A stretch of DNA of 64,000 nt, taken from NCBI GenBank assembly GCA_020721045.1, contig DYNN01000004.1:1-64000 (forward strand), written 5' to 3'. The notes beneath the pieces are model-generated. The model had not been told where the DNA came from. It made no database searches and saw nothing but the letters and a program-made list of their open reading frames with translations. The position numbers and the translations under genes were made by a program. Numbering within the stretch: the stretch's first letter is position 1; every line of letters begins with the position of its first letter. Of the stretch, positions 51,654-64,000 are shown in pieces. This DNA is from Thiomargarita sp. (GTDB lineage Bacteria; Pseudomonadota; Gammaproteobacteria; Beggiatoales; Beggiatoaceae).

Positions 51654-54311
51654 CTAAACCTGTGTGGGATTAACTTTTTCAGGGTCTAATCCATATTTTT
51701 TAATGGCTTCAGTGACTTTAGCTTGTGGGATTTTACCCATATCAGCCAAACCTTTGAGTGCAGCAATTGCAATGTAGTAACGATCCACTTCAAAAAAGCG
51801 TCTGAGTTGCTTACGTGAGTCACTGCGTCCAAATCCATCGGTGCCTAGCACGTAATAATTGGCATGTGGGATAAATGCGCGAATTTGATCAGCGATATTT
51901 TTAACATAATCAGTAGTTGCGATTACGGGACCTACTTTATCCTGTAAGATTGTGGTCACATAACTGGATTTGGGCGTTTCTTCTGGGTGTAATAGATTCC
52001 ACCGTTGTATGGCTAATCCTTCACGACGTAGTTCAGTGAAACTGGTGACACTCCAAATATCGGCGGCTACATCGAAATCTTCAGCTAATAAACCACTGGC
52101 TGCAATGACTTCACGTAAAATTGTACCACTACCGAGTAATTGTACTTTCAACGCTTTACTTGCGCCTTCTTTAAACAAATACATGCCCTTTAAAATGCCT
52201 TCTTGCACACCGTCTGGCATTGCTGGTTGCAAGTAATTTTCATTCATAGCAGTGATATAATAGAACACATTTTCTTGCTCTTTATACATGCGACGTAAGC
52301 CATCATGAATAATCACAGCCATTTCATACGCAAAAGTGGGATCGTAGGAAATACAGTTTGGAATCGTTGAAGACATCAATAAACTATGTCCATCTTGATG
52401 TTGTAAACCTTCACCGGCTAAAGTGGTCCGCCCAGCAACGCCCCCGATGAGAAAGCCGCGCGCTTGTATATCGCCCGCTGCCCAAATTAGATCACCCACA
52501 CGTTGAAAACCAAACATGGAATAGAAAATAAAGAAGGGAATCATATTAGTATTGTGGTTACTATACGCAGTACCTGCGGCAATCCAAGAACACATGGCAC
52601 CGGCTTCGTTAATACCTTCTTCTAAAATCTGCCCCTTTTTATCCTCACGATAATACATCACTTGATCCGCATCTTGTGGCTCGTATAATTGTCCCACAGA
52701 TGAATAAATACCCAATTGTCTAAACATACCTTCCATACCAAAAGTGCGGGCTTCATCGGGTACAATCGGTACAATGTATTCACCAATTTTCTTATCGCGC
52801 GTCAATGCGGTTAATAGGCGGACAAATGCCATCGTGGTTGATATTTCACGATCACCACTCCCTTGTAACACACTGTCAAAAATCGATAAATCTGGGATTT
52901 CTAACGGTGTTGCTGTTCTTTGACGAGCGGGTAGATAGCCACCTAAGAGTTTACGACGTTCATGTAAATATTTGATTTCTGGACTGCCTTCGTTGGGTTT
53001 GAAGAAAGGGGCTTCATCAATTTTGTCATCTGGAATTGGAATATTAAAACGATCTCTAAAGGCTTTTAATGCTTCCTTGCCCATTTTCTTTTGTTGATGA
53101 GTGATATTTTGCCCTTCACCTGCCATGCCCATACCGTAACCTTTGACGGTTTTTGCCAAAATGACAGTAGGTTGCCCTTTGTGTTTACTAGCAGCCGCAT
53201 AAGCCGCATAAACTTTGTGTGGATCATGTCCACCACGATTCAAACGCCAAATATCTTGATCACTCATATTGGCAACCATGGCTTTTAATTCAGGATACTT
53301 GCCAAAAAAATGTTCACGGGTATAAGCACCACCTTTGGCTTTGAAATTTTGATATTCGCCATCAACACACTCTTCCATACGTTGACGCAAAAGACCTTTT
53401 ACATCCATCGTCAACAGCGGGTCCCAATAAGAACCCCAAATGACTTTAATCACATTCCAACCTGCACCACGAAAATCAGCTTCTAACTCTTGGATAATTT
53501 TACCGTTGCCGCGTACAGGTCCGTCAAGCCGTTGTAGATTACAATTGATCACAAAAATCAAATTGTCCAATTTTTCACGACCTGCCAGTGAAATTGCACC
53601 TAAAGATTCTGGTTCATCCATTTCACCATCACCCATAAATGCCCACACTTTGCGAACTTCGGTATTGGCTACGTCGCGATCATGCAAATATTTCATAAAA
53701 CGCGCTTGGTAAATTGCTTGAATCGGACCTAACCCCATGGAAACCGTTGGAAATTGCCAAAAATCAGGCATTAACCAAGGATGTGGATAAGAGGAAAGTC
53801 CACTACCACCGGCTTCTTGACGAAAATTATGCAATTGTTCTTCGCTAATGCGTCCTTCTAAAAAAGCGCGTGCATAAATACCCGGTGCTGAATGTCCTTG
53901 AAAATAAACCAAATCTCCACCATGCTGACTACTACGCGCGTGGAAAAAGTGATTAAAACCCACTTCATATAAAGTAGCGGCTGAGGCAAAACTGGCAATA
54001 TGTCCGCCTAATTCGCTATTTAATACATTAGCTTGTACAACCATTGCCAATGCATTCCAACGCACATAGGAACGAATTCGCCATTCCATTTCGGGGTCGC
54101 CAGATGAGCGTTCTTCTTGATTAAATGGGATGGTATTTAAATAAGCTGTATTTGCTGTATAGGGTAAATAAGCACCTGAACGCCGAGCTTTATCGATAAG
54201 TTTTTCCAGAAGAAAATGGGCGCGATCAGCACCTTCACGGGATAGCACGCTTTCTAATGCGTCTAACCATTCTTGAGTTTCTTCTATATCAATATCGGGG
54301 TATTCCGCCAT
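51654..54311 (-). CDS. aceE: Pyruvate dehydrogenase E1, homodimeric
   Basis: This 885-residue thiamine diphosphate enzyme decarboxylates pyruvate and acetylates the lipoyl group of E2. Its length matches the homodimeric E1 of gammaproteobacteria. Features are [19 protein letters not shown], the ThDP-binding [10 protein letters not shown]...[14 protein letters not shown], and KTVKGYGMG. The C-terminal half has [18 protein letters not shown] and [17 protein letters not shown] lies before ATG 54311. It is followed by aceF. Confidence 0.97.
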
Positions 54312-54706
54312 GATGATTCCTTATAGTTGCAAGAATTTGTAATTCTAATGATATCGAGATTGTGATTCGGCTAAAGGTGGCATTTTACCCGTATATCCAA
54401 TTTTTTTCTATTTTAGCAATTTAACTAGCCAGAGCAATCGCATTAAAATTTTTAGCTGTTCAAAATCAGTTAATTACAAAATTACACGATAAAAAAGTAG
54501 TATTTGTAAATTATTGACTAAAAAACCATTGTGTAATTTAGTGTGATTGTTCTACATTTATTTCACTATATAAGCTTGACATTCTTTTTTATAATGGATC
54601 ATAATATTGGATAGTTAGAAAAATACTGTAATATAAATATTAGTAGTATAAAATAGATTTTCATGTTGTGTACATTTATACCTCCTACCTTAATTAACAC
54701 TATACT
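54312..54706. other. Intergenic region between aceE and the caspase/serpin cluster
   Basis: About 395 bases of AT-rich DNA between divergent genes. The first 100 bases should hold the aceE promoter, though I cannot point to clear boxes. The right part holds a good sigma70-like promoter for the plus-strand cluster. No gene or RNA was recognised in between. Confidence 0.7.
54576..54605 (+). promoter_or_regulatory. Sigma70-like promoter for the caspase/serpin cluster
   Basis: TTGACA at 54576-54581 and CATAAT at 54600-54605 are separated by 18 bases, leaving about a 95-base leader before ATG 54707. A second TATAAT-like stretch within the spacer is too close to the -35 box. Confidence 0.6.
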
Positions 54707-55843
54707 ATGAAAAACATGAATTCTTTTAACCGTTTTAAAATCCTACTAAATCTTCTCAATGCTATTCTATTGTTGTTATTAATGTTTTTAACAGGCTGTC
54801 AATCAAATCCTTCCATAGATACAACAGGATTAGATAATTCTGAACCTGATAATGAGATGACAGAAGAAAGAGCAACGACTAAAGGAACCTCTGAAGATGG
54901 TGTCGAATTTTCAAAAATTGCTTTAGTGATAGGCAATGATGATTATGAATATTCTTCTTTGTCTAATCCGATTAAAGATGCAAAACAAGTTTATAATTCG
55001 TTGAAAAAGGTTGATTTTAAAGCGCAATTAAAAACTAATTTAACTCAACAAGAAATGGATGAGGCATTGGATGAATTTTACGAAGAATTGCGTGATGAAC
55101 CCGGTAGTATGGGATTGCTTTATTATGCAGGTCATGGAGCGCAAGCAGATAATGAGAACTATCTTATTCCCATTGATAATAAAAAGATCAGTAAGCAAAG
55201 TGACTTAGCTTATAATGCAATCCCGTTAAGCAAAATTCAAACTGATATGAATAATGCAAAAACTTACTTTAATGTTTTAATATTAGATGCTTGTCGTGAT
55301 AATCCTTATGATGGAAAAGATCGTAGCTTAAGAAGAGGACTTGCACAACAAACATTAAGTACTCCTCCCAAGACACGCGGACTTAGAAAAAATATCGGTT
55401 CTATACTTGCTTTTTCCACAGCCAGCGGTGAGGTGGCTTCTGATGACATAGGTTATGCCGATCACTTAAGTAAAATGTTGTCTAAAACCAATGAAGAAGC
55501 TACACGCATTGATGACCTATTTAGAGAATTAACCAAGAAAATTCAAGAAAAAAGTAATGGAGAACAAACACCTTGGTATAATACTTCTTTAACGGATGTA
55601 GTTTATTTGGGAGAACGTCAATCTAAAACTCCCCCACAACCACCTCCCAAACCTCCAATATCAAAACCACCAATTGTTATTGATGTTGATTACCAGCCAG
55701 AAAAAAAGAAAGACCAATCTCGCAATGATGATGATTCCAATTCCATAGATTGTAGAGATTTACTTAAGCGGTGGGAACGTGGCTTTGTTCCATTAACCAA
55801 AAAAGAAGAAAAGATTTTATTTAACCAATGTTCATCAAATTAG
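54707..55843 (+). CDS. Caspase-like (C14) protease lipoprotein
   Basis: This 378-residue protein has a lipoprotein signal (lipobox LTGC, lipidated Cys31). After an acidic linker the caspase p20-type fold begins KIALVIGNDDYEYSSLSNPIKD. The catalytic His143 lies in LLYYAGHGAQ and Cys196 in LILDACRDNP, followed by GSILAFSTASGEVASDD and NGEQTPWYNTSL. This is the orthocaspase/metacaspase-like group with a standalone p20 fold. Bacterial members often cut after basic residues. The C-terminus is a Pro-rich linker (TPPQPPPKPPISKPP) and a short charged end. It is the first gene of the cluster, and lipidation places it in the envelope. Confidence 0.92.
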   Translation: MKNMNSFNRFKILLNLLNAILLLLLMFLTGCQSNPSIDTTGLDNSEPDNEMTEERATTKGTSEDGVEFSKIALVIGNDDYEYSSLSNPIKDAKQVYNSLKKVDFKAQLKTNLTQQEMDEALDEFYEELRDEPGSMGLLYYAGHGAQADNENYLIPIDNKKISKQSDLAYNAIPLSKIQTDMNNAKTYFNVLILDACRDNPYDGKDRSLRRGLAQQTLSTPPKTRGLRKNIGSILAFSTASGEVASDDIGYADHLSKMLSKTNEEATRIDDLFRELTKKIQEKSNGEQTPWYNTSLTDVVYLGERQSKTPPQPPPKPPISKPPIVIDVDYQPEKKKDQSRNDDDSNSIDCRDLLKRWERGFVPLTKKEEKILFNQCSSN

Positions 55844-55871
55844 GGCAAATATAACAATAGAGGAAATGTAA

Positions 55872-57062
55872 ATGCAGTTTTTGAAGCTCACTTTTACCGC
55901 TTTTAGCATACTGCTATTAAGTGCTTGTGGTCCTGAAGAAATTAAACCCATTGGCGTGCAACCTATGGGATTTCATACCGCTTTTCCAATTCTTGCTAAC
56001 AATATGTTAAAGCAAGTAAAAAATGGTTTAGGTATGATGGATTCTAAACAGAAACTTTTTCTGATTGAACCGTTCATTGAAGAAAACACAGGTGCGGTTG
56101 TTAAAGCCAGTCGTGTGGGCGAAGATATTTTCAAAAATGAGGCGAAAAAGAATTTTGGTGATTTTTCAATTGATCGTATGAGTAGTGAAAAATTAAATGA
56201 GGCTGATTATATCATCAATGGTGCTTTTTTGTATGAACCTTTGCCAGAACGTAATGCAAAATCAGGAACAAAGTATTACCATTTTATCAGTTCAATCTTT
56301 GATAAAAGTACAGGGATTGTTGTGGCTAACGCAGATATTTGGATATCAGATTCCAATTTAGATGTCGTACCTACTTTAGATAATCCCATGTTAATCAAAG
56401 ATAAACGTACTAGAGGTATTGGAGTAGTTGCCAGACAAGAAATAGGGGCAAAAATCGATAATGCTTATTATAATGCTTTAGAAACCAGTGCCTTACTTTC
56501 TGATGCTAAAACAACTTACGAAAAAGGTGGTAAAAGTAACTATGAAAAAGCATTAGCCATTTACACTAAAGCGGCAGAACGTAAAGATGGTCAAACAATG
56601 GAAACTTATAGTGGTATGTACGACAGTGGTCTAAAATTAGATTTGTTAGATGTGGCAGAAGAAGCATTTGCCAAATTAGTAGAAATCGCTGTAGCAAACA
56701 ATAGTTTATCCAGTCGTTTCCTATTTCAAGTCAATAAAACAGATTTTGTGACAACCAAGCAAAAAGAATACAGCCTTTGGTTGCGTGAAATTGCTCAATA
56801 TTTCAGTGAAAATGATAAATGTCTCAATGTAGTAGGACATAGCAGTAAAACGGGACAACAGGAATACAATGTCAAATTATCGCAACAACGCGCTGAAGCA
56901 ATACGAGAAGCAATGAATCAAGAATTTTCAGAGATTAACGCCAAATCTAAAGCATCCGGTGAAGGATTTGAGCAATGTAGAGTATGTTCCGGCACTGATG
57001 ACGACAAAGATGCAGTTGATAGACGAGTTGAATTTACTGTTGTCGATTGTAATGAGATATGA
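55872..57062 (+). CDS. Lipoprotein with C-terminal OmpA-like domain
   Basis: This 396-residue lipoprotein (lipobox LSAC, Cys19) has an N-terminal half that weakly resembles FlgO/CsgG-type envelope lipoproteins (LFLIEPFIEENTGAVVKASR and ADYIINGAFLYEP). The middle at about 210-270 looks like a pair of TPR helices (YEKALAIYTKAAERKDG). The C-terminus at about 300-396 has LNVVGHSSKTGQQEYNVKLS, QQRAEAIREAMNQ and DRRVEFTV, a diverged OmpA peptidoglycan-binding fold with extra cysteines. AGAGGAAATG precedes the ATG. It may hold the caspase system near the wall; this is inference. Confidence 0.75.
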   Translation: MQFLKLTFTAFSILLLSACGPEEIKPIGVQPMGFHTAFPILANNMLKQVKNGLGMMDSKQKLFLIEPFIEENTGAVVKASRVGEDIFKNEAKKNFGDFSIDRMSSEKLNEADYIINGAFLYEPLPERNAKSGTKYYHFISSIFDKSTGIVVANADIWISDSNLDVVPTLDNPMLIKDKRTRGIGVVARQEIGAKIDNAYYNALETSALLSDAKTTYEKGGKSNYEKALAIYTKAAERKDGQTMETYSGMYDSGLKLDLLDVAEEAFAKLVEIAVANNSLSSRFLFQVNKTDFVTTKQKEYSLWLREIAQYFSENDKCLNVVGHSSKTGQQEYNVKLSQQRAEAIREAMNQEFSEINAKSKASGEGFEQCRVCSGTDDDKDAVDRRVEFTVVDCNEI

Positions 57063-57105
57063 TGACTCAATAGGTTGATTTTTTTACTATACAAAAGGAG
57101 AGAAG

Positions 57106-57807
57106 ATGAAACAATATGCTTTAATTTTATTAGCAGCCTTATGTTTACCTGCGACAACATTGGCTGTAGATGACGACAATTTACCAGTTATTCCAGATAC
57201 TGGTGAAAATTTTGATCCAGCCAATGTACAAAGTGTGCCATCAAGTGGTGCTAAAACTAGAGGATTGGGTTCTTCCAAACGCCTACCGCCTGCGCCTCAA
57301 ACCAAAGCAGAAATTATTAAGTTAATGAAAAAACCGGCAAAGACAAGAAGTGTAGGTGGAAAAACGCGTAATCCCAAAGGACGGGCTTACATCAATTTTG
57401 ATTCTGGCTCAGCAGCAATTAGATCAGATTCCTACGCTTTGTTATATGAATGGGCTAGCGCATTACAAGATGAAGAATTAACCAATGCTACGATTAAAGT
57501 TCTTGGTCACACCGATAGCGTTGGTAGTGAAGATACAAATATGAGTTTGGGAGAACGTCGCGCTGCTGCCGTAAAGGAACGCTTAGTAGAAGATGGTGTT
57601 ATTCCCAGCCGTTTTTTAATTATTTCCTATGGTGAAAGTAAGCCTTATGTATCTAATAATACCGAATCTGGGCGCGCTGTCAATCGTCGGGTCGAATTTG
57701 TATTAGATTACGATAATTATACACCTCCACAACAAGAAGAAAGTATCAGTAATGACGCTCCAGTTGAGGATCAAGTTGAAGAAGAACCCTATTATGATGA
57801 TGAATAA
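57106..57807 (+). CDS. OmpA-family periplasmic protein
   Basis: This 233-residue exported protein has a signal peptide (MKQYALILLAALCLPATTLA) and a basic linker at about 45-88. The canonical OmpA domain at about 90-205 has INFDSGSAAIRSDSYALL, VLGHTDSVGSEDTNMSLGE and RAVNRRVEFVL. These residues bind diaminopimelate in peptidoglycan. The tail is acidic (EEEPYYDDE). AAGGAG precedes the ATG. It has no beta-barrel domain, so it is a soluble or wall-bound protein. Its place between two caspase genes suggests a scaffold or anchor role. Confidence 0.88.
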   Translation: MKQYALILLAALCLPATTLAVDDDNLPVIPDTGENFDPANVQSVPSSGAKTRGLGSSKRLPPAPQTKAEIIKLMKKPAKTRSVGGKTRNPKGRAYINFDSGSAAIRSDSYALLYEWASALQDEELTNATIKVLGHTDSVGSEDTNMSLGERRAAAVKERLVEDGVIPSRFLIISYGESKPYVSNNTESGRAVNRRVEFVLDYDNYTPPQQEESISNDAPVEDQVEEEPYYDDE

Positions 57808-57825
57808 ATATTAACTTAACGTATA

Positions 57826-57882
57826 AAGGTAATTAAAAGAAGTTTGTTATAATTGATGATAAACTTTTAATAATTGCCTCTT
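57826..57882 (+). promoter_or_regulatory. Imperfect hairpin with a TATAAT box before the second caspase gene
   Basis: AGGTAATTAAAAGAAGTTTG and the opposing TTTATCA/CTTTTAATAATTGCCT side form an imperfect long stem within the 100-base spacer. A TATAAT at 57848-57853 lies in its loop but has no -35 partner. It could be an attenuator or weak terminator ahead of the AGGAG ribosome site at 57891. Confidence 0.4.
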
Positions 57883-57907
57883 TTATAAAAAGGAGTGTAA
57901 AATTTTT

Positions 57908-59380
57908 ATGTTAAACAGAATATTATTGATGTTTAGTTTACTTTTATTCAATGCGTTTCTGTCATTTCATGCAATTGCAGAAGATCGCGCATTGATTATC
58001 GGTATTAATGCCTATGAAGGTGATAATGCGCTTGAAGGGTGTAGAACTGACGCAGAAAATATGGAACGGGTAGTTAAGGAAGTGTGGGGATATAAATCTT
58101 CACAAATCAAGACATTATTTGACAAAAAAGCTACACAAAAAGCGATTTTAGATGCTTTTGATGATTGGTTGATTCGTGACACTCGTTCTGGAGATAGAGT
58201 CTTTTTTTATTTTAGTGGACATGGTATACAAATTCCAGATGAAGATGGCGACGAAGAAGATGACATAGACGAAGCGTTTTGCCCAGTAGAAATGAAAGAG
58301 ATGATTACAGACGATGAAATCAACAAGCGGTTAAAAAAATTATCAAGTCGGCAAGTGATATTTGTTGCTGACTCTTGTCATTCTGGTACAACCACTAGAG
58401 CATTAAATTCAAGTAAAAGCAAACTCAAAGCCAAGCGAGTGTTATATGACGGTGAGCTTCGTGCCTCCAAAACACGTGGTATCGGTTTACCTGAAGCACG
58501 GTACAATACCGTTGATCCAACGTTTAAAAATGTAATTGCTTATAGTGCAGTTTCTCCCACACAATTTGCCTTAGATGGTGGACCTAACGGTGGCGTATTT
58601 ACCAACGCCTTTATCAAAGCGGTTAAAGACAAAGCAGCGGATACTAATCGTGATGGCAAGGTAACGCATGGCGAAGTATTGAGCTATGTGCAAAAAGAAT
58701 CCCAAAAATTTTGTGATGAAACAGGACAATGTACTCAAAATGATGGTCATCTCACGCCACAATTAGATGCCAATGCTCAGTGGAATTCTGTTGAAATCAC
58801 CGCACGAGACGCTGCGCCTCCCTCACCTTCTTCTTCTGCAGATGATGTGATGACCACCGCTGAAGGATTTGACAACGAAAACAGTGCGCAATTGCAAGCC
58901 AATATTTTACCTAGTACTGCTTTTAATTTGGGTGATAAAATGCAATTTACCATCAAAAGCCAACGCACAGGCTATCTATTTCTTTTAGATATCAATAGTA
59001 AAGGACAATTGACAGTCATTTTTCCAAACAAATTTTCTAAAGAAATCAATCAAGAAAGCATACTTGAAGCAGGTCAAACCATCACTATTCCAGATAACAG
59101 TTATAATAATTTTGATTTTGAAGCACAAGAACCAACAGGTGATGGCTTGTTACTTGCGTTACTGCTTGAAGAAAATGAAGAAACTCTGAGAAGTGTGGAA
59201 AATAAATTGTTTGGTTTACCTGTAGAAAGAGGATTTGCTGCTATAGAAAGACCAAGCGAAGTCAATAAAGCATTGGAAAAACTATACCAAAGATTACACC
59301 AAACAATTTTAGGACCAGAAGGTGTCGGTCGTCCGATTAAATGGTCAATCGTAACAGTAGAATACGAGATCAATAGATGA
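57908..59380 (+). CDS. Exported metacaspase with C-terminal DUF4384-like domain
   Basis: This 490-residue protein has a signal peptide (cleavage near Ala24) and then a metacaspase domain from EDRALIIGINAYEG. The catalytic His105 is in FYFSGHGIQ. The acidic loop DEDGDEEDDIDEAFCP, followed by ITDDEINKRL, is characteristic of type I metacaspases and fits calcium-dependent activity. The catalytic Cys157 is in FVADSCHSGT. A further stretch to about residue 295 completes the fold. After a Ser-rich linker comes a DUF4384-like beta domain at about 325-430 (GYLFLLDINSKGQLTVIFPN). Metacaspases cut after Arg or Lys. Its stop overlaps the start of a serpin gene (ATGA). Confidence 0.93.
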   Translation: MLNRILLMFSLLLFNAFLSFHAIAEDRALIIGINAYEGDNALEGCRTDAENMERVVKEVWGYKSSQIKTLFDKKATQKAILDAFDDWLIRDTRSGDRVFFYFSGHGIQIPDEDGDEEDDIDEAFCPVEMKEMITDDEINKRLKKLSSRQVIFVADSCHSGTTTRALNSSKSKLKAKRVLYDGELRASKTRGIGLPEARYNTVDPTFKNVIAYSAVSPTQFALDGGPNGGVFTNAFIKAVKDKAADTNRDGKVTHGEVLSYVQKESQKFCDETGQCTQNDGHLTPQLDANAQWNSVEITARDAAPPSPSSSADDVMTTAEGFDNENSAQLQANILPSTAFNLGDKMQFTIKSQRTGYLFLLDINSKGQLTVIFPNKFSKEINQESILEAGQTITIPDNSYNNFDFEAQEPTGDGLLLALLLEENEETLRSVENKLFGLPVERGFAAIERPSEVNKALEKLYQRLHQTILGPEGVGRPIKWSIVTVEYEINR

Positions 59381-60585
59381 AACACACACTATTACAACAG
59401 ATATTAACCAGTGTTTTGCTTTTGTTTATCACTATCACCAGTCATGCAAAAGAAGAAAAACTGGCAAAAAGCATCAATCGATTTGCTATAGATTTATCCC
59501 ACCAATTGATTGAACGAGAACAAGGTAACTTGCTGTTTTCGCCTTATAATATTGCCAATGCACTGATCATTACTTATGCCGGTGCAAAAGCAGACACTCA
59601 AAAACAAATTGCCCATGTTTTACATTTAGAAAATATGGCTGAAAATGATATTCATGCTAAATTTGCTAAGTTGAATCGTTCAATTGAATCAAAATCAGGC
59701 GATGAATTCTATCAACTAAATTCTGCTAACAATCTATGGATACAACAATCTGAATTAACAGAAGATTTCACAAAAATTTTAGCAAATTATGACATTGAAC
59801 CTCAATTAGTCGATTTTCAAGCAAATTTTAATGATATCAGATATGAAATTAATGATTGGGTAGAAGAGAAAACCGTTGGTAAAGTACCCAATATGCTGCA
59901 ATCAAATGCGATTGACCAAAACACTACGTTGGCATTGATCAGCGCATTATATCTTCAAGCCAGTTGGGCTACGCCTTTTGATCCAGATAGAACCCAATTA
60001 CAGCCTTTTACTTTGAATAATGGACAAACTATTGATGTGCCTACTATGGAATTAACGGGTAATTTCAACTATTTAGATGATGATGCAGCACAAATAATTG
60101 AATTACCTTATGTTCACAAAAGCAATTTATCCATGTTAATCGTTTTGCCAAAAACTAAGCAAGGAACAGTGAATGAGTTTGATGCCCTTAATGCGCATTT
60201 GACAAAAACCTCTATTACCTTATTTTTACCAAAATTTAAAGTGGAATCGGCTTTTGAATTGAAAGAGTACCTGCGCATGTTGGACATGAAAGATGCGTTT
60301 ATAGCTGGAAAAGCTGATTTTTCGGGAATCAATGGAAACAAAGAATTAGTCTTATCTTCAGTTGTGCATAAAACCTTTATCAATGTAGATGAAAAAGGCT
60401 CAGAAGCAGCGGCTGCAACAGCAATTATTGTAGGCAAAGGGTTGAAAAAAGAAACAACTCCTTTAACATTGAAAATCGATCATCCCTTTTTATTTGTAAT
60501 TAAAGAGAAAAACTCCGGAGTGATTCTTTTTTGGGGTAAAGTTGTTAAACCAAATTTCGATGACGGTAGGGGAATTAGAGGGTAA
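59377..60585 (+). CDS. Secreted serpin 1
   Basis: This 402-residue serpin has a signal peptide (cleavage near SHA-KEEK, residue 24). Serpin motifs run NLLFSPYNIANALIITYAGA, NSANNLWIQQ, LISALYLQASW and SVVHKTFINVDEKGSEAAAATA. The hinge (residues 341-349, GSEAAAATA) has only small residues, so the protein should be inhibitory. Counting the hinge Gly as P15 puts P1 near residue 355 with Lys354, Lys357 and Lys358 around it. The end is DHPFLFVIKEKNSGVILFWGKV. Basic residues at the bait would suit trypsin-like proteases or metacaspases. It starts inside the stop of the metacaspase gene. Confidence 0.94.
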   Translation: MKHTLLQQILTSVLLLFITITSHAKEEKLAKSINRFAIDLSHQLIEREQGNLLFSPYNIANALIITYAGAKADTQKQIAHVLHLENMAENDIHAKFAKLNRSIESKSGDEFYQLNSANNLWIQQSELTEDFTKILANYDIEPQLVDFQANFNDIRYEINDWVEEKTVGKVPNMLQSNAIDQNTTLALISALYLQASWATPFDPDRTQLQPFTLNNGQTIDVPTMELTGNFNYLDDDAAQIIELPYVHKSNLSMLIVLPKTKQGTVNEFDALNAHLTKTSITLFLPKFKVESAFELKEYLRMLDMKDAFIAGKADFSGINGNKELVLSSVVHKTFINVDEKGSEAAAATAIIVGKGLKKETTPLTLKIDHPFLFVIKEKNSGVILFWGKVVKPNFDDGRGIRG

Positions 60586-60594
60586 TAAATAGAC

Positions 60595-60631
60595 CTTAAA
60601 CTAGAATTTAGACCTTAAGTTCTAGTTTAAG
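60595..60631 (+). terminator. Perfect hairpin after serpin 1
   Basis: CTTAAACTAGAA (60595-60606) and TTCTAGTTTAAG (60620-60631) form a 12-bp perfect stem with a 13-base loop and a short TTTG tail. The phrase AGACCTTAA also occurs twice here. It could end or attenuate the transcript before the next lipoprotein gene. Confidence 0.6.
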
Positions 60632-60660
60632 TTTGTCACAAATACAAAATTGGAAAAAGT

Positions 60661-61134
60661 ATGGCAAATAAAATCAAGATCGTTGTTGTTCTAATTAGTT
60701 ATCTGTTTTTATCCAGTTGTGCTGAAATGAGAACGGCTATTCCGGGACTTGGTGTTTTAGCCTGTTCATTAGGCATTGATGAAGCGATGAGTAATTTTAG
60801 CTATTTAAGCCGCACGTTAGCATCGGCTGCTGGCGGCGTTATGTGTGGTATTGTTGGTAAAAAATTAGGCGAATATCTAGTTGAAGAAGATTACGCAAAC
60901 ATTGCCACCGTAGTTGACGATCCTGAACCACAAACCCAAACTTGGTGTTCTGGTACGCGTGGATTTGGCGTAAAGCCTAGCGAACAAGGTGGATGTGGAG
61001 ATAAGAATCAAGTTTCAGTCACTACAGAACGAGTGTCAACTAGAAATGGTCAAAAGTGTCGTGATTACTTAACGGAAGTAAAAACCCCTAAAGGGAAGAT
61101 AGAAACAGTCACGGCTAATACATGTGAAGCCTAA
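60661..61134 (+). CDS. Small surface-antigen-like lipoprotein
   Basis: This 157-residue lipoprotein (lipobox LSSC, Cys20) has a Gly-rich helix (SAAGGVMCGIVGKKLGEY) followed by a beta region ending GQKCRDYLTEVKTPKGKIETV and NTCEA. This resembles the 17-kDa rickettsial antigen/RT0821-type pattern, where a Cys-Arg motif precedes the final strand. Its function is unknown; it shares direction and export with its caspase neighbours. Confidence 0.75.
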   Translation: MANKIKIVVVLISYLFLSSCAEMRTAIPGLGVLACSLGIDEAMSNFSYLSRTLASAAGGVMCGIVGKKLGEYLVEEDYANIATVVDDPEPQTQTWCSGTRGFGVKPSEQGGCGDKNQVSVTTERVSTRNGQKCRDYLTEVKTPKGKIETVTANTCEA

Positions 61135-61203
61135 AACCCATTTATTTATATGATTACACTGTTAAGAGTGTGATAACAGTATAATTTTAAAGCGAAATAT
61201 ATC

Positions 61204-62286
61204 ATGAAAATATCTCGTCTCATTTATCGAATCACTCCTATTTTACTAACCTTGTTAGTCTCATCTTGCGTTGAAGTAAAAGATTTATTACCTTCAAACA
61301 ATAAAAATAATGATGAAATAAAACAAGAACATAGTATGAAAATATTACAAATAACTTCCAACTCAGTTGAAAAAAGAGTGGCTTTAGTGATTGGTAATGG
61401 TGATTATCATTATGCAGAGAAACTTACAAATCCGACTCACGATGCTCAAAGTTTAGCAGATACTCTAAATCAACTCGGTTTTTTAGTCATTCATAAAGAA
61501 AATCTTGATAAATCAGGTTTTAATGTTGCGCTCCGTGAATTTACTCAAGCTCTTCAAGGTGCCCATTTGGGAGTGTTTTTTTACGCGGGACATGGTGGGC
61601 GCTATCAAAAAGAAAATTATCTTATTTCAGTTAATGCAAACGCCAAGAATAGTGGAAAAACGCTTTTATCTGAATTACTTGCATTAGATTCTGTCTTAGA
61701 ACAAATGGAAAGTGCAAACGTACCCACGAAAATTATTATTTTGGATGCTTGCCGTAATAATCCTTTTAAAGAGAAAGGGTTGGCTGAAGTCAAATCACGC
61801 GCTTCTTATAATGGAGGTACATTTATCGCTTATTCCACCCAACCGGGTAATGTTGCAAAAGACGGTCATGGCTACAACAGTCCTTATACTGAAAGTCTTT
61901 TGGAATTTATTCAACAACCTAATAAACCCATTGAAATATTATTCAGAAACGTGCGTACCACAGTAGAACAAAAAACTGATGGAGAACAAATCCCTTGGGA
62001 TGAAAGCTCTCTTAAAGGTGGAGATTTATGCCTTGCTGGTTGCTTTGCTTCGGCACATAATGACTATGATTATTGCACTACAAAATTAGATCAAGGTTTA
62101 TACCAAGGGCAATGTGAAGATAACTTGCCACATGGACAAGGTGTAATGCGATATAGTAGTGGTGAATACTATGAAGGTAGTTTTATACACGGATTAAGAG
62201 AAGGTTATGGTATTCAATATCTTACCGATGGAACAGAATTGAAAGGTGAGTTTTGTGCTGGTAAAATATGTAAATTATTCAACTAA
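61204..62286 (+). CDS. Caspase-like lipoprotein with C-terminal MORN repeats
   Basis: This 360-residue lipoprotein (lipobox VSSC, Cys22) has a caspase-like fold beginning KRVALVIGNGDYHYAEKLTNP. The catalytic His130 is in FFYAGHGGRY and Cys183 in IILDACRNNPFKEKG, then GTFIAYSTQPGNVAKDG and DGEQIPWDESSL. Residues about 300-350 contain two MORN repeats (YQGQCEDNLPHGQGVMRY and YYEGSFIHGLREGYGIQY). MORN repeats bind lipids or proteins. The fold is closer to the first caspase gene than to the metacaspase in the middle and lacks the acidic loop. It is followed by a second serpin gene after 42 bases. Confidence 0.9.
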   Translation: MKISRLIYRITPILLTLLVSSCVEVKDLLPSNNKNNDEIKQEHSMKILQITSNSVEKRVALVIGNGDYHYAEKLTNPTHDAQSLADTLNQLGFLVIHKENLDKSGFNVALREFTQALQGAHLGVFFYAGHGGRYQKENYLISVNANAKNSGKTLLSELLALDSVLEQMESANVPTKIIILDACRNNPFKEKGLAEVKSRASYNGGTFIAYSTQPGNVAKDGHGYNSPYTESLLEFIQQPNKPIEILFRNVRTTVEQKTDGEQIPWDESSLKGGDLCLAGCFASAHNDYDYCTTKLDQGLYQGQCEDNLPHGQGVMRYSSGEYYEGSFIHGLREGYGIQYLTDGTELKGEFCAGKICKLFN

Positions 62287-62328
62287 AAACACTGGTAAAT
62301 AAACTATTTTTTGCTTTAAAGTGAGTAA

Positions 62329-63699
62329 ATGATGAAAACAAAGAGAATTATACTAAATTTATTGATCATGCAAGTTATTTTATGGACGAATACAGCATGT
62401 TCTACAACGGCGGAAACAGCGGAGCTAGAAACAGAAACAGCAATGCAACTTTCTGATAACAAGGATAATAATAGTTCGCTTCCTGAATCTGCACCTGCGG
62501 CATCCATGAATGAAAATAAAATCGTTGTTGCAGAAAATCATACTGCGCAAGAACCAAAAGTGACAACCGGCGATACTCAAAAAGCGGCTCGCACTATTAA
62601 CGCTTTTACCGCTGATTTATATGGTGTTTTAAAAACAAAGGAAGGAAATTTGTTCTTTTCACCTTACAGCATTTCCACTGCATTAGTTATGGCTTATGCG
62701 GGTTCTAAAGGTAACACAGCACAGCAATTAGCCACTGCTTTACATTTAAGCAATGTCAGCCATAGTGATTTTTCTTCTTTAAAACAATCTCTTGTTAATT
62801 CAAGCAATGAGGAAAGTTACCAATTGTCTATTGCAAATGCGATTTGGATGCAAAAAAATTTCTTAGTCAATCCTGAATACATCTATTTGCTACAAGATCA
62901 ATATCGTTCTAAATTACAATTGGTTGATTTTGAAAAAAATACAGAGGAAGCTAGAAATAAAATTAATGTGTGGACTGAAGACAAAACTAAGCAAAAAATT
63001 AAAGATTTGTTACAACCCGGTATTCTAACGGAACAAACTCGATTAGTGTTGACCAATGCTATTTATTTTAAAGGCAATTGGTTAAATGCGTTTAGTGAAG
63101 AAAAAACAGCTTCTTTACCTTTTAAATTGACATCCAATCAACAAGTAGAAGTTCCTACGATGCTTCAAGAAGGGCAATTCAACTACACAGAAGATGAAAA
63201 CGTCCAATTGATTGAATTACCTTATCAAACTCAAGATGAACAAACAGAGTTGACGATGGTGGTTTTATTACCCAAACAATTGGAAAAATTTGCAGAAGTG
63301 GAACAGCACGTTACACAATGGTTATCTCCCCATTTTAAGAAAGAAAAAGTAAAATTGTACTTACCCAAATTTAACGCCACCTCCGGATTTGATTTAAAAG
63401 AGATACTCGAAATATTGGGCGTTAAAGACGCATTTGATGCTTCACACGCTGATTTTACTAACATTAATGGTAAAGAAAAATTGTCTATTTCCGCTGTGAT
63501 ACATAAAGCATTCATTGATGTCAATGAAAAAGGAACAGAAGCTGCGGCGGCTACAGCAGTAGTGATTGCTACAAGAAGTTTAGTCAGAATCAAAGAGTTT
63601 CGTGCTGATCATCCATTTTTATTTTGGATTCGCGACCAACAATCAGGCACTATTTTATTTATGGGACGTGTTGTTAATCCTACTTTATCTACTCAATGA
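62329..63699 (+). CDS. Serpin 2, probable lipoprotein
   Basis: This 456-residue serpin has an N-terminal lipobox-like TNTAC (Cys24; Asn at -3 is atypical). A Glu/Thr/Ala-rich linker to about residue 80 precedes the serpin fold: NLFFSPYSISTALVMAYAGSKG, LTNAIYFKGNWLNAF, AVIHKAFIDVNEKGTEAAAATA, FRADHPFLFWIRDQQSGTILFMGRVVNPT. The hinge is G402-TEAAAATA-A410. With G402 as P15, P1 is Arg416 and P1' is Ser417, a typical trypsin-like or metacaspase bait. The loop is two residues shorter than in serpin 1. It would be tethered to the envelope if lipidated. Confidence 0.94.
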   Translation: MMKTKRIILNLLIMQVILWTNTACSTTAETAELETETAMQLSDNKDNNSSLPESAPAASMNENKIVVAENHTAQEPKVTTGDTQKAARTINAFTADLYGVLKTKEGNLFFSPYSISTALVMAYAGSKGNTAQQLATALHLSNVSHSDFSSLKQSLVNSSNEESYQLSIANAIWMQKNFLVNPEYIYLLQDQYRSKLQLVDFEKNTEEARNKINVWTEDKTKQKIKDLLQPGILTEQTRLVLTNAIYFKGNWLNAFSEEKTASLPFKLTSNQQVEVPTMLQEGQFNYTEDENVQLIELPYQTQDEQTELTMVVLLPKQLEKFAEVEQHVTQWLSPHFKKEKVKLYLPKFNATSGFDLKEILEILGVKDAFDASHADFTNINGKEKLSISAVIHKAFIDVNEKGTEAAAATAVVIATRSLVRIKEFRADHPFLFWIRDQQSGTILFMGRVVNPTLSTQ

Positions 63700-63705
63700 G
63701 GTTGT

Positions 63706-64000
63706 ATGAAAAAATTATTTAACATCGTTTTATTATCTATGATAATTATTGGTTGTGTGCCCACTGTTCCAACAAGTAGTTATTCATCTCAATTTGCATC
63801 TAGTACACCACTTAGTGAAATAGAGTTTCTTGATATTAGTACTTTTGACGCTGATTTATCTAACTCAATGAAAGCAGCATTATCAACTATCACAGTGACT
63901 ACTTTATCGCCTGTTACTGTAAATGAAATTCCAGAACGTTTGGAAAAATGGTTGGCAGCAGTAAAGGAAAAAGGAGGTTCTATTGACATGGAACCGAAAA
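63706..64000 (+). CDS. Lipoprotein of unknown function, cut by the window end
   Basis: The frame opens at ATG 63706, 6 bases after the serpin 2 stop and preceded by GAGGT. The visible 98 residues start with a lipoprotein signal (lipobox IIGC, Cys17), followed by Ser/Thr-rich sequence, then a helix-like VNEIPERLEKWLAAVKEKGG. I do not recognise a family. The tight spacing indicates cotranscription with serpin 2, so the cluster continues to the right. Confidence 0.8.
   Translation, partial: MKKLFNIVLLSMIIIGCVPTVPTSSYSSQFASSTPLSEIEFLDISTFDADLSNSMKAALSTITVTTLSPVTVNEIPERLEKWLAAVKEKGGSIDMEPK

Follow-up and report, generated by a model that had tools for sequence, protein, structure and literature searches.

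An exported gene cluster of caspase-fold proteases, serpins and OmpA-domain proteins in Thiomargarita: a putative envelope protease module with its own inhibitors

Why should a bacterium export caspase-fold proteases together with serpins, and could the serpins restrain the very proteases beside which they are encoded? The question is raised by a locus at the end of the window analysed here, which is the first 64 kb (64,000 nucleotides) of a 75-kb contig from the 3.4-Mb genome of Thiomargarita sp. Nine genes, all on the plus strand at 54707–64176, encode three C14 proteases, two serpins, two OmpA-domain proteins and two small lipoproteins, as listed in Table 1; the ninth ends past the window. 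The cluster is flanked by aceE (minus strand, start at 54311) and a lapB-like gene (minus strand, L043:8795-9961). The intergenic gaps from the first gene to the ninth are 28, 43, 100, −4, 75, 69, 42 and 6 nt, where the negative value represents 4 nt (ATGA) shared by the reading frames of C14b and serpin 1. Export signals were recognized on all nine proteins, by eye and with simple rules rather than with a trained predictor. The sequence-only reading had described nine exported same-strand genes of these kinds, and this description is borne out by the open reading frames, the Pfam matches and the intact catalytic dyads and inhibitory hinges. Promoter and terminator counts at the cluster were no better than those in shuffled sequences.

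Table 1. Genes, predicted scissile sites and motif sites of the cluster (positions in the window; an arrow marks a predicted scissile bond)
Feature	Position	Strand	Description
C14a	54707..55843	+	Lipoprotein C14 caspase-fold protease (DACRDNP); lipobox LTGC, Q at +2; linker sites LRR↓GL, KTR↓GL
OmpA1	55872..57062	+	Lipoprotein; weak LpoB-like N-domain, TPR-like helices, C-terminal peptidoglycan-binding OmpA domain
OmpA2	57106..57807	+	Sec-exported OmpA-domain protein; linker with KTR↓GL, KTR↓SV, KTR↓NP
C14b	57908..59380	+	Sec-exported metacaspase (DSCHSG, acidic Ca-type loop); C-terminal DUF4384
Serpin 1	59377..60585	+	Sec-exported; reactive loop VGK↓GL
lipo1	60661..61134	+	Small lipoprotein; TRGF site; kept in C14 clusters of two relatives
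C14c	61204..62286	+	Lipoprotein C14; MALT1-like catalytic domain (DACRNNP), MORN repeats; linker EKGL, KSR↓A
Serpin 2	62329..63699	+	Inhibitory-type, probable lipoprotein; P1 Arg, loop ATR↓SL
lipo2	63706..64000, on to contig position 64176	+	Small lipoprotein; KTRSI site
Sigma-70-like promoter, best match (11/12)	54576..54605	+	Upstream of operon; match number not above chance
C14a linker site TRGL	55373..55384	+	Residue 223
OmpA1 site TRGI	56409..56420	+	Residue 180
OmpA2 linker site TRGL	57256..57267	+	Residue 51
OmpA2 linker site TRSV	57343..57354	+	Residue 80, ahead of OmpA domain
C14b site TRAL	58394..58405	+	Just after catalytic Cys; may be structural
C14b site TRGI	58472..58483	+	Residue 189, in the p20–p10 linker; modelled with low confidence, probably flexible
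Serpin 1 predicted scissile site K-G-L	60436..60444	+	One residue short of canonical 17
lipo1 site TRGF	60955..60966	+	Residue 99
Serpin 2 predicted scissile site T-R-S-L	63571..63582	+	P2-P2', residue 415

The three proteases match Pfam Peptidase_C14 (C14a, 1.9e-34; C14b, 7.7e-32, plus DUF4384; C14c, 7.1e-40, plus MORN). Their caspase-fold His/Cys dyads are intact (H143/C196 in C14a, H105/C157 in C14b and H130/C183 in C14c), and each has an acidic residue two positions before the cysteine (D194, D155 and D181 respectively). In metacaspases and paracaspases this D-x-C residue lines the Arg/Lys-specific S1 pocket, and all three proteins are predicted from sequence to be Arg/Lys-specific caspase-fold enzymes. 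C14b can be aligned with metacaspases from yeast and plants; its acidic Ca-type loop aligns with that of yeast metacaspase-1, and the loop residues D111, D115, E116, D118, D121 and E122 are invariant in eight homologues. It is probably a soluble, Ca-dependent enzyme. C14c resembles the MALT1 paracaspase. The structure model of C14b has a mean pLDDT of 68, which is too weak for pocket geometry, and the p20–p10 linker appears in it as a low-confidence, probably flexible stretch. This linker is the place of autoprocessing in metacaspases, which, like orthocaspases, typically cut themselves after Arg or Lys. Arg specificity is described for orthocaspases, and the combination of C14 with DUF4384 is already known (PMC8283722). 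We note that seven of the 10 C14 domain matches in the genome lie outside the cluster, and a C14 neighbour alone is therefore weaker evidence than it appears.

Both serpins contain the complete Pfam Serpin domain (4.6e-104 for serpin 1 and 5.6e-116 for serpin 2) and have intact hinges, EKGSEAAAATA and EKGTEAAAATA (P15 Gly, P14 Thr/Ser, P12–P9 Ala). Judged by hinge and domain, they are inhibitory-type serpins. Serpins are present in 27 of the 96 sampled genomes, all 27 in Beggiatoaceae; in a class-wide sample of 369 genomes, 10 carry them. In the serpin tree the C14-linked members all fall in one clade, mostly with a lipobox, while a solo clade consists of Sec-exported proteins that have no lipobox and are never C14-linked; 22 serpins outside the linked clade show no C14 association. 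A scan of the genome contigs with serpin 1 as a single protein gave no match, and the profile used for the wider search was built from a 5-row alignment, a 12-row alignment being too divergent. Two further genomes contain serpin genes in fragments (L081:7575-8796 in G018 and L082:6943-8404 in G017), which indicates that serpin loss is also under way in the genomes richest in C14. A different kind of reduction is seen at L271:8248-8469 (G028:C384), where a 73-residue lipoprotein encoded directly after C14b consists only of a signal peptide and the reactive loop and C-terminus of a serpin (STEATAVVASR↓AL...HVDHPFLLVIK). It represents an in-frame internal deletion, and could be either a product of decay or a free bait peptide.

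The Pfam OmpA domain is found in both OmpA1 and OmpA2. The structure model of OmpA1 is confident (pLDDT 85), and the protein has an N-domain with a weak LpoB match in one relative, a TPR-like middle and the OmpA domain at its end. Some 40 homologues share the LpoB-like, TPR and OmpA domains (e.g. L232, L263, L248); there are several per genome, mostly away from C14 genes, and their N-domain has no Pfam name. Neither lipo1 nor lipo2 matched a known family in Pfam or NCBIfam. The lipo2 proteins form an undescribed family of small lipoproteins that start with F-x-D-x-x-x-F-D (e.g. L045, L276, L290, L310), occur in 26 of 43 Beggiatoaceae genomes and are often encoded beside C14 genes. Similar exported barrel-like proteins without a Pfam match are also encoded beside C14 genes in two genomes (L068:10160-11053 and L274:8070-8954).

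The association of C14 proteases with serpins recurs in several arrangements. On contig C23 of the same genome (L044:484-5371, G000:C23), a third serpin and three further C14 genes lie on one strand, with a DsbD N-domain protein upstream, and the same arrangement of three C14 genes and a serpin is seen in G007 (L073). Elsewhere the order is C14-C14-OmpA1-serpin (G011, L077), a C14/serpin pair (G028, L068) or, at a second locus of G028 (L271), OmpA2-lipo1-C14-C14-C14b followed by the serpin remnant described above. In G042 (L076) the order is OmpA1-serpin-lipo2, with the contig ending in OmpA1 and with the same 6-nt spacing between serpin and lipo2 as in the window. C14 genes are abundant in the family, with up to 57 matches in a Beggiatoaceae genome, and chance co-location therefore needed testing. 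With each genome's own C14 density taken into account and the window cluster counted once, 5 of the 34 family serpins have a C14 gene at 2.5 kb or less, compared with 0.52 expected (P=1.4e-4). None of the 80 closest serpins from the wider search, a few of which are family members, is C14-linked within the flanks examined, and the linkage is confined to a single clade of serpins, from about three genera. We therefore conclude that the association is real but lineage-specific. The idea that every family serpin stands beside a C14 gene is rejected by the solo clade. By the test set in the sequence-only reading, that C14, serpin and OmpA genes be neighbours in related genomes, the proposal is only partly upheld: the neighbourhood recurs in related genera, in varied arrangements, but most family serpins, being of the solo clade, have no C14 neighbour. 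Genes for OmpA2-type and lipo2 proteins also recur beside C14 genes where there are no serpins, so the protease–anchor module looks older, and the serpin would be a later addition.

Serpins act as baits, and their reactive loops were therefore compared with the C14 proteins. The motif T-R-[GS]-[ILMVF], which was noticed before being tested, occupies the predicted P2-P1-P1'-P2' positions in 18 of the 34 family serpins and in none of 74 distinct loops elsewhere (Fisher 1.6e-11); members of a family share motifs by descent, so that the counts are not independent events and are inflated within the family. A wider form, [KR]-G-hydrophobic at the scissile bond, is found in 22/34 family serpins and 0/74 others. 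In the p20–p10 linkers of C14-DUF4384 proteases the strict motif has a frequency of 13.3 per 1000 aa, compared with 0.00 outside the linker and 0.06 in background proteins, the background being drawn from the proteins of the loci examined. By clade, the strict motif occurs in 16 of 21 solo serpins and 2 of 13 members of the C14-linked clade; it is thus commonest in the unlinked serpins, which would have to act on C14 proteases encoded elsewhere. A P1 Arg or Lys is common in unlinked serpins too, and was for that reason dropped as evidence by itself.

At two loci the likeness between loop and linker is closer. The serpin of L044, on contig C23, has the loop VSR↓GR, and VSRGR stands in the linker of the adjacent C14, a match noticed before it was tested; at the sister locus L073 the loop is GSR↓GR and the adjacent linker GSRGH. 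At each of these loci, none of 49 other C14 linkers matches the serpin loop as well, and over seven linked serpins the combined P is 3.7e-4. In five of the seven the linker of the neighbouring C14 resembles the loop no more than other linkers do, and for serpin 1 (GK↓GL) and serpin 2 (ATR↓SL) of the window the neighbours matched no better than other linkers did. Loop–linker matching at every linked locus is therefore rejected, and holds only at L044 and L073.

The same motif is scattered through the cluster. TRG is its most enriched tripeptide, to an extent reached in 5 of 2000 length-matched random sets and in 0 of 17 real gene blocks. OmpA1, OmpA2, lipo1 and lipo2 together contain five occurrences of the motif, compared with 0.06 expected, that of lipo2 being at residue 99. 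Both OmpA2 sites and the lipo1 site are kept in two relatives as [ST]-R-[GSA]-hydrophobic while nearby residues vary; within the OmpA1 and lipo2 families the site is not kept in general. In C14b, the TRAL site may be structural, given how near it lies to the catalytic cysteine.

What is observed directly is the gene content, the intact catalytic motifs and hinges, the recurring linkage and the shared motif. The most probable reading of these observations, which we hold with moderate confidence on the basis of sequence, is an envelope-located C14 protease module restrained by serpins of the same operon whose loops mimic the sites of its activation. The operon would encode an outer-membrane/periplasmic module in which the lipoproteins C14a and C14c and the soluble C14b are activated by cutting their own p20–p10 linkers. 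The serpins would be dedicated restraints of these proteases: their loops resemble the putative activation site, [K/R]↓[G/S]-hydrophobic and in the strictest form T-R↓[G/S]-[I/L], and an activated enzyme that attacked such a loop would be trapped irreversibly. The OmpA proteins may anchor the module to peptidoglycan, and OmpA2, lipo1 and perhaps OmpA1 and lipo2, which carry the same site, are candidate substrates. Once protease activity exceeded the serpin supply, the anchors would be cut and the envelope remodelled or breached. We infer each of these steps: cleavage at the motif, trapping, anchoring and the consequence for the envelope. A more elaborate version, which we offer tentatively and think somewhat improbable, is a protease cascade with a shared T-R↓[G/S]-hydrophobic site code, comprising several C14 proteases, anchors and lipoproteins, with matching serpin baits setting the threshold.

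An envelope-located regulated-protease system had been proposed already from the sequence, and this part of the proposal is supported by the recurrent neighbourhood, the likeness of loop and linker and the precedent from a plant and a green alga. Its suggested roles in cell death, defence, predation or filament fragmentation found no support: PADLOC gave only generic caspase and MotB-like matches, and the cluster encodes no gasdermin, nuclease or pore-former. We rejected a known anti-phage defence system, since no defined PADLOC system with an effector was matched, and also a bacterial gasdermin/protease system, since Pfam, NCBIfam and PADLOC gave no gasdermin match for any protein of the cluster and none is thus encoded next to a protease.

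The main rival explanation is that the serpins have external targets, the trypsin-like proteases of predators, grazers or mat competitors, while the C14 proteases have a separate surface function and the two share an accessory lipoprotein cassette. A P1 Arg or Lys fits any trypsin-like enzyme, the same P1 Arg is found in solo serpins, which have no C14 gene beside them, and 12 of 20 serpin-bearing genomes from other phyla have no C14 at all. An outward target does not, however, account for serpin genes standing directly beside C14 genes on the same strand in several arrangements, including the 4-nt overlap, nor for the loop–linker matches at L044 and L073 or the family-wide shift of the loop to TR[GS], seen in none of the 74 other serpins; we consider this explanation unlikely. 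The motif sharing could also be explained by a third, Arg-specific envelope protease that cuts T-R↓G/S, with the C14 proteases, OmpA2 and the lipoproteins as its substrates and the serpins as its inhibitors. This would fit a motif common to several unrelated families, the C14 proteases among them, but the cluster encodes no other protease, and autoprocessing after Arg/Lys is typical of metacaspases and orthocaspases (in part from PMC8283722), making a third enzyme quite improbable. Chance co-location in C14-rich genomes might be suspected from the number of C14 genes per genome and from the 22 serpins outside one clade that lack the association. It is nevertheless very improbable, given the excess over expectation at 2.5 kb and the repetition of the pairing in different arrangements with different C14 subfamilies.

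Protease–inhibitor operons exist in bacteria, and serpin control over caspase-type proteases is found in plants, algae and animals. In the staphopain–staphostatin system of Staphylococcus, an exported cysteine protease has a co-transcribed inhibitor; in contrast to the present locus, the protease has a papain fold and the inhibitor is a small cytosolic β-barrel, with no serpin involved. Miropin and the KLIKK proteases of Tannerella do not include a C14 protease, and the serpin is not described as an operon partner. The closest functional precedents are eukaryotic. The inhibition of a metacaspase by a plant serpin, mentioned in the sequence-only reading, is confirmed in the literature: serpins inhibit metacaspases in Arabidopsis and in the green alga Chlamydomonas, and suicide inhibition of AtMC9 by AtSerpin1 is reported (PMC10609998). 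The likeness to AtSerpin1–AtMC9/AtMC1 and CrSERPIN–CrMCA-I lies in a serpin inhibiting a C14B metacaspase (PMC10609998), which here is predicted; the present system differs in being bacterial, exported and operon-encoded, and in combining C14 proteases of several subfamilies with putative OmpA anchors and lipoprotein serpins. A similar abundance of C14 in filamentous or giant bacteria is known from cyanobacterial orthocaspases (PMC8283722) and Thiomargarita metacaspases, with 59 C14 in Ca. T. nelsonii (PMC4853749); no serpin is mentioned in either source and no OmpA in PMC8283722. We found no description of a bacterial C14–serpin operon in the open-licence literature searched.

To our knowledge, neither the physiological targets of most bacterial serpins nor inhibitors of bacterial metacaspases are known. 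The locus pairs C14 proteases with serpins and predicts the scissile bonds, which makes both questions testable with a few purified proteins. For the many C14 proteases of giant and filamentous sulfur bacteria, a puzzling abundance, the locus suggests a place, the envelope, together with candidate substrates (OmpA2 and lipo1) and a candidate brake. If the module works as proposed, relatives of the giant sulfur bacteria would have a bacterial counterpart to the control of caspase-type proteases by serpins; and the cascade, if true, would be an analogue of caspase cascades in the envelope, restrained by endogenous serpins, that evolved in giant and filamentous sulfur bacteria.
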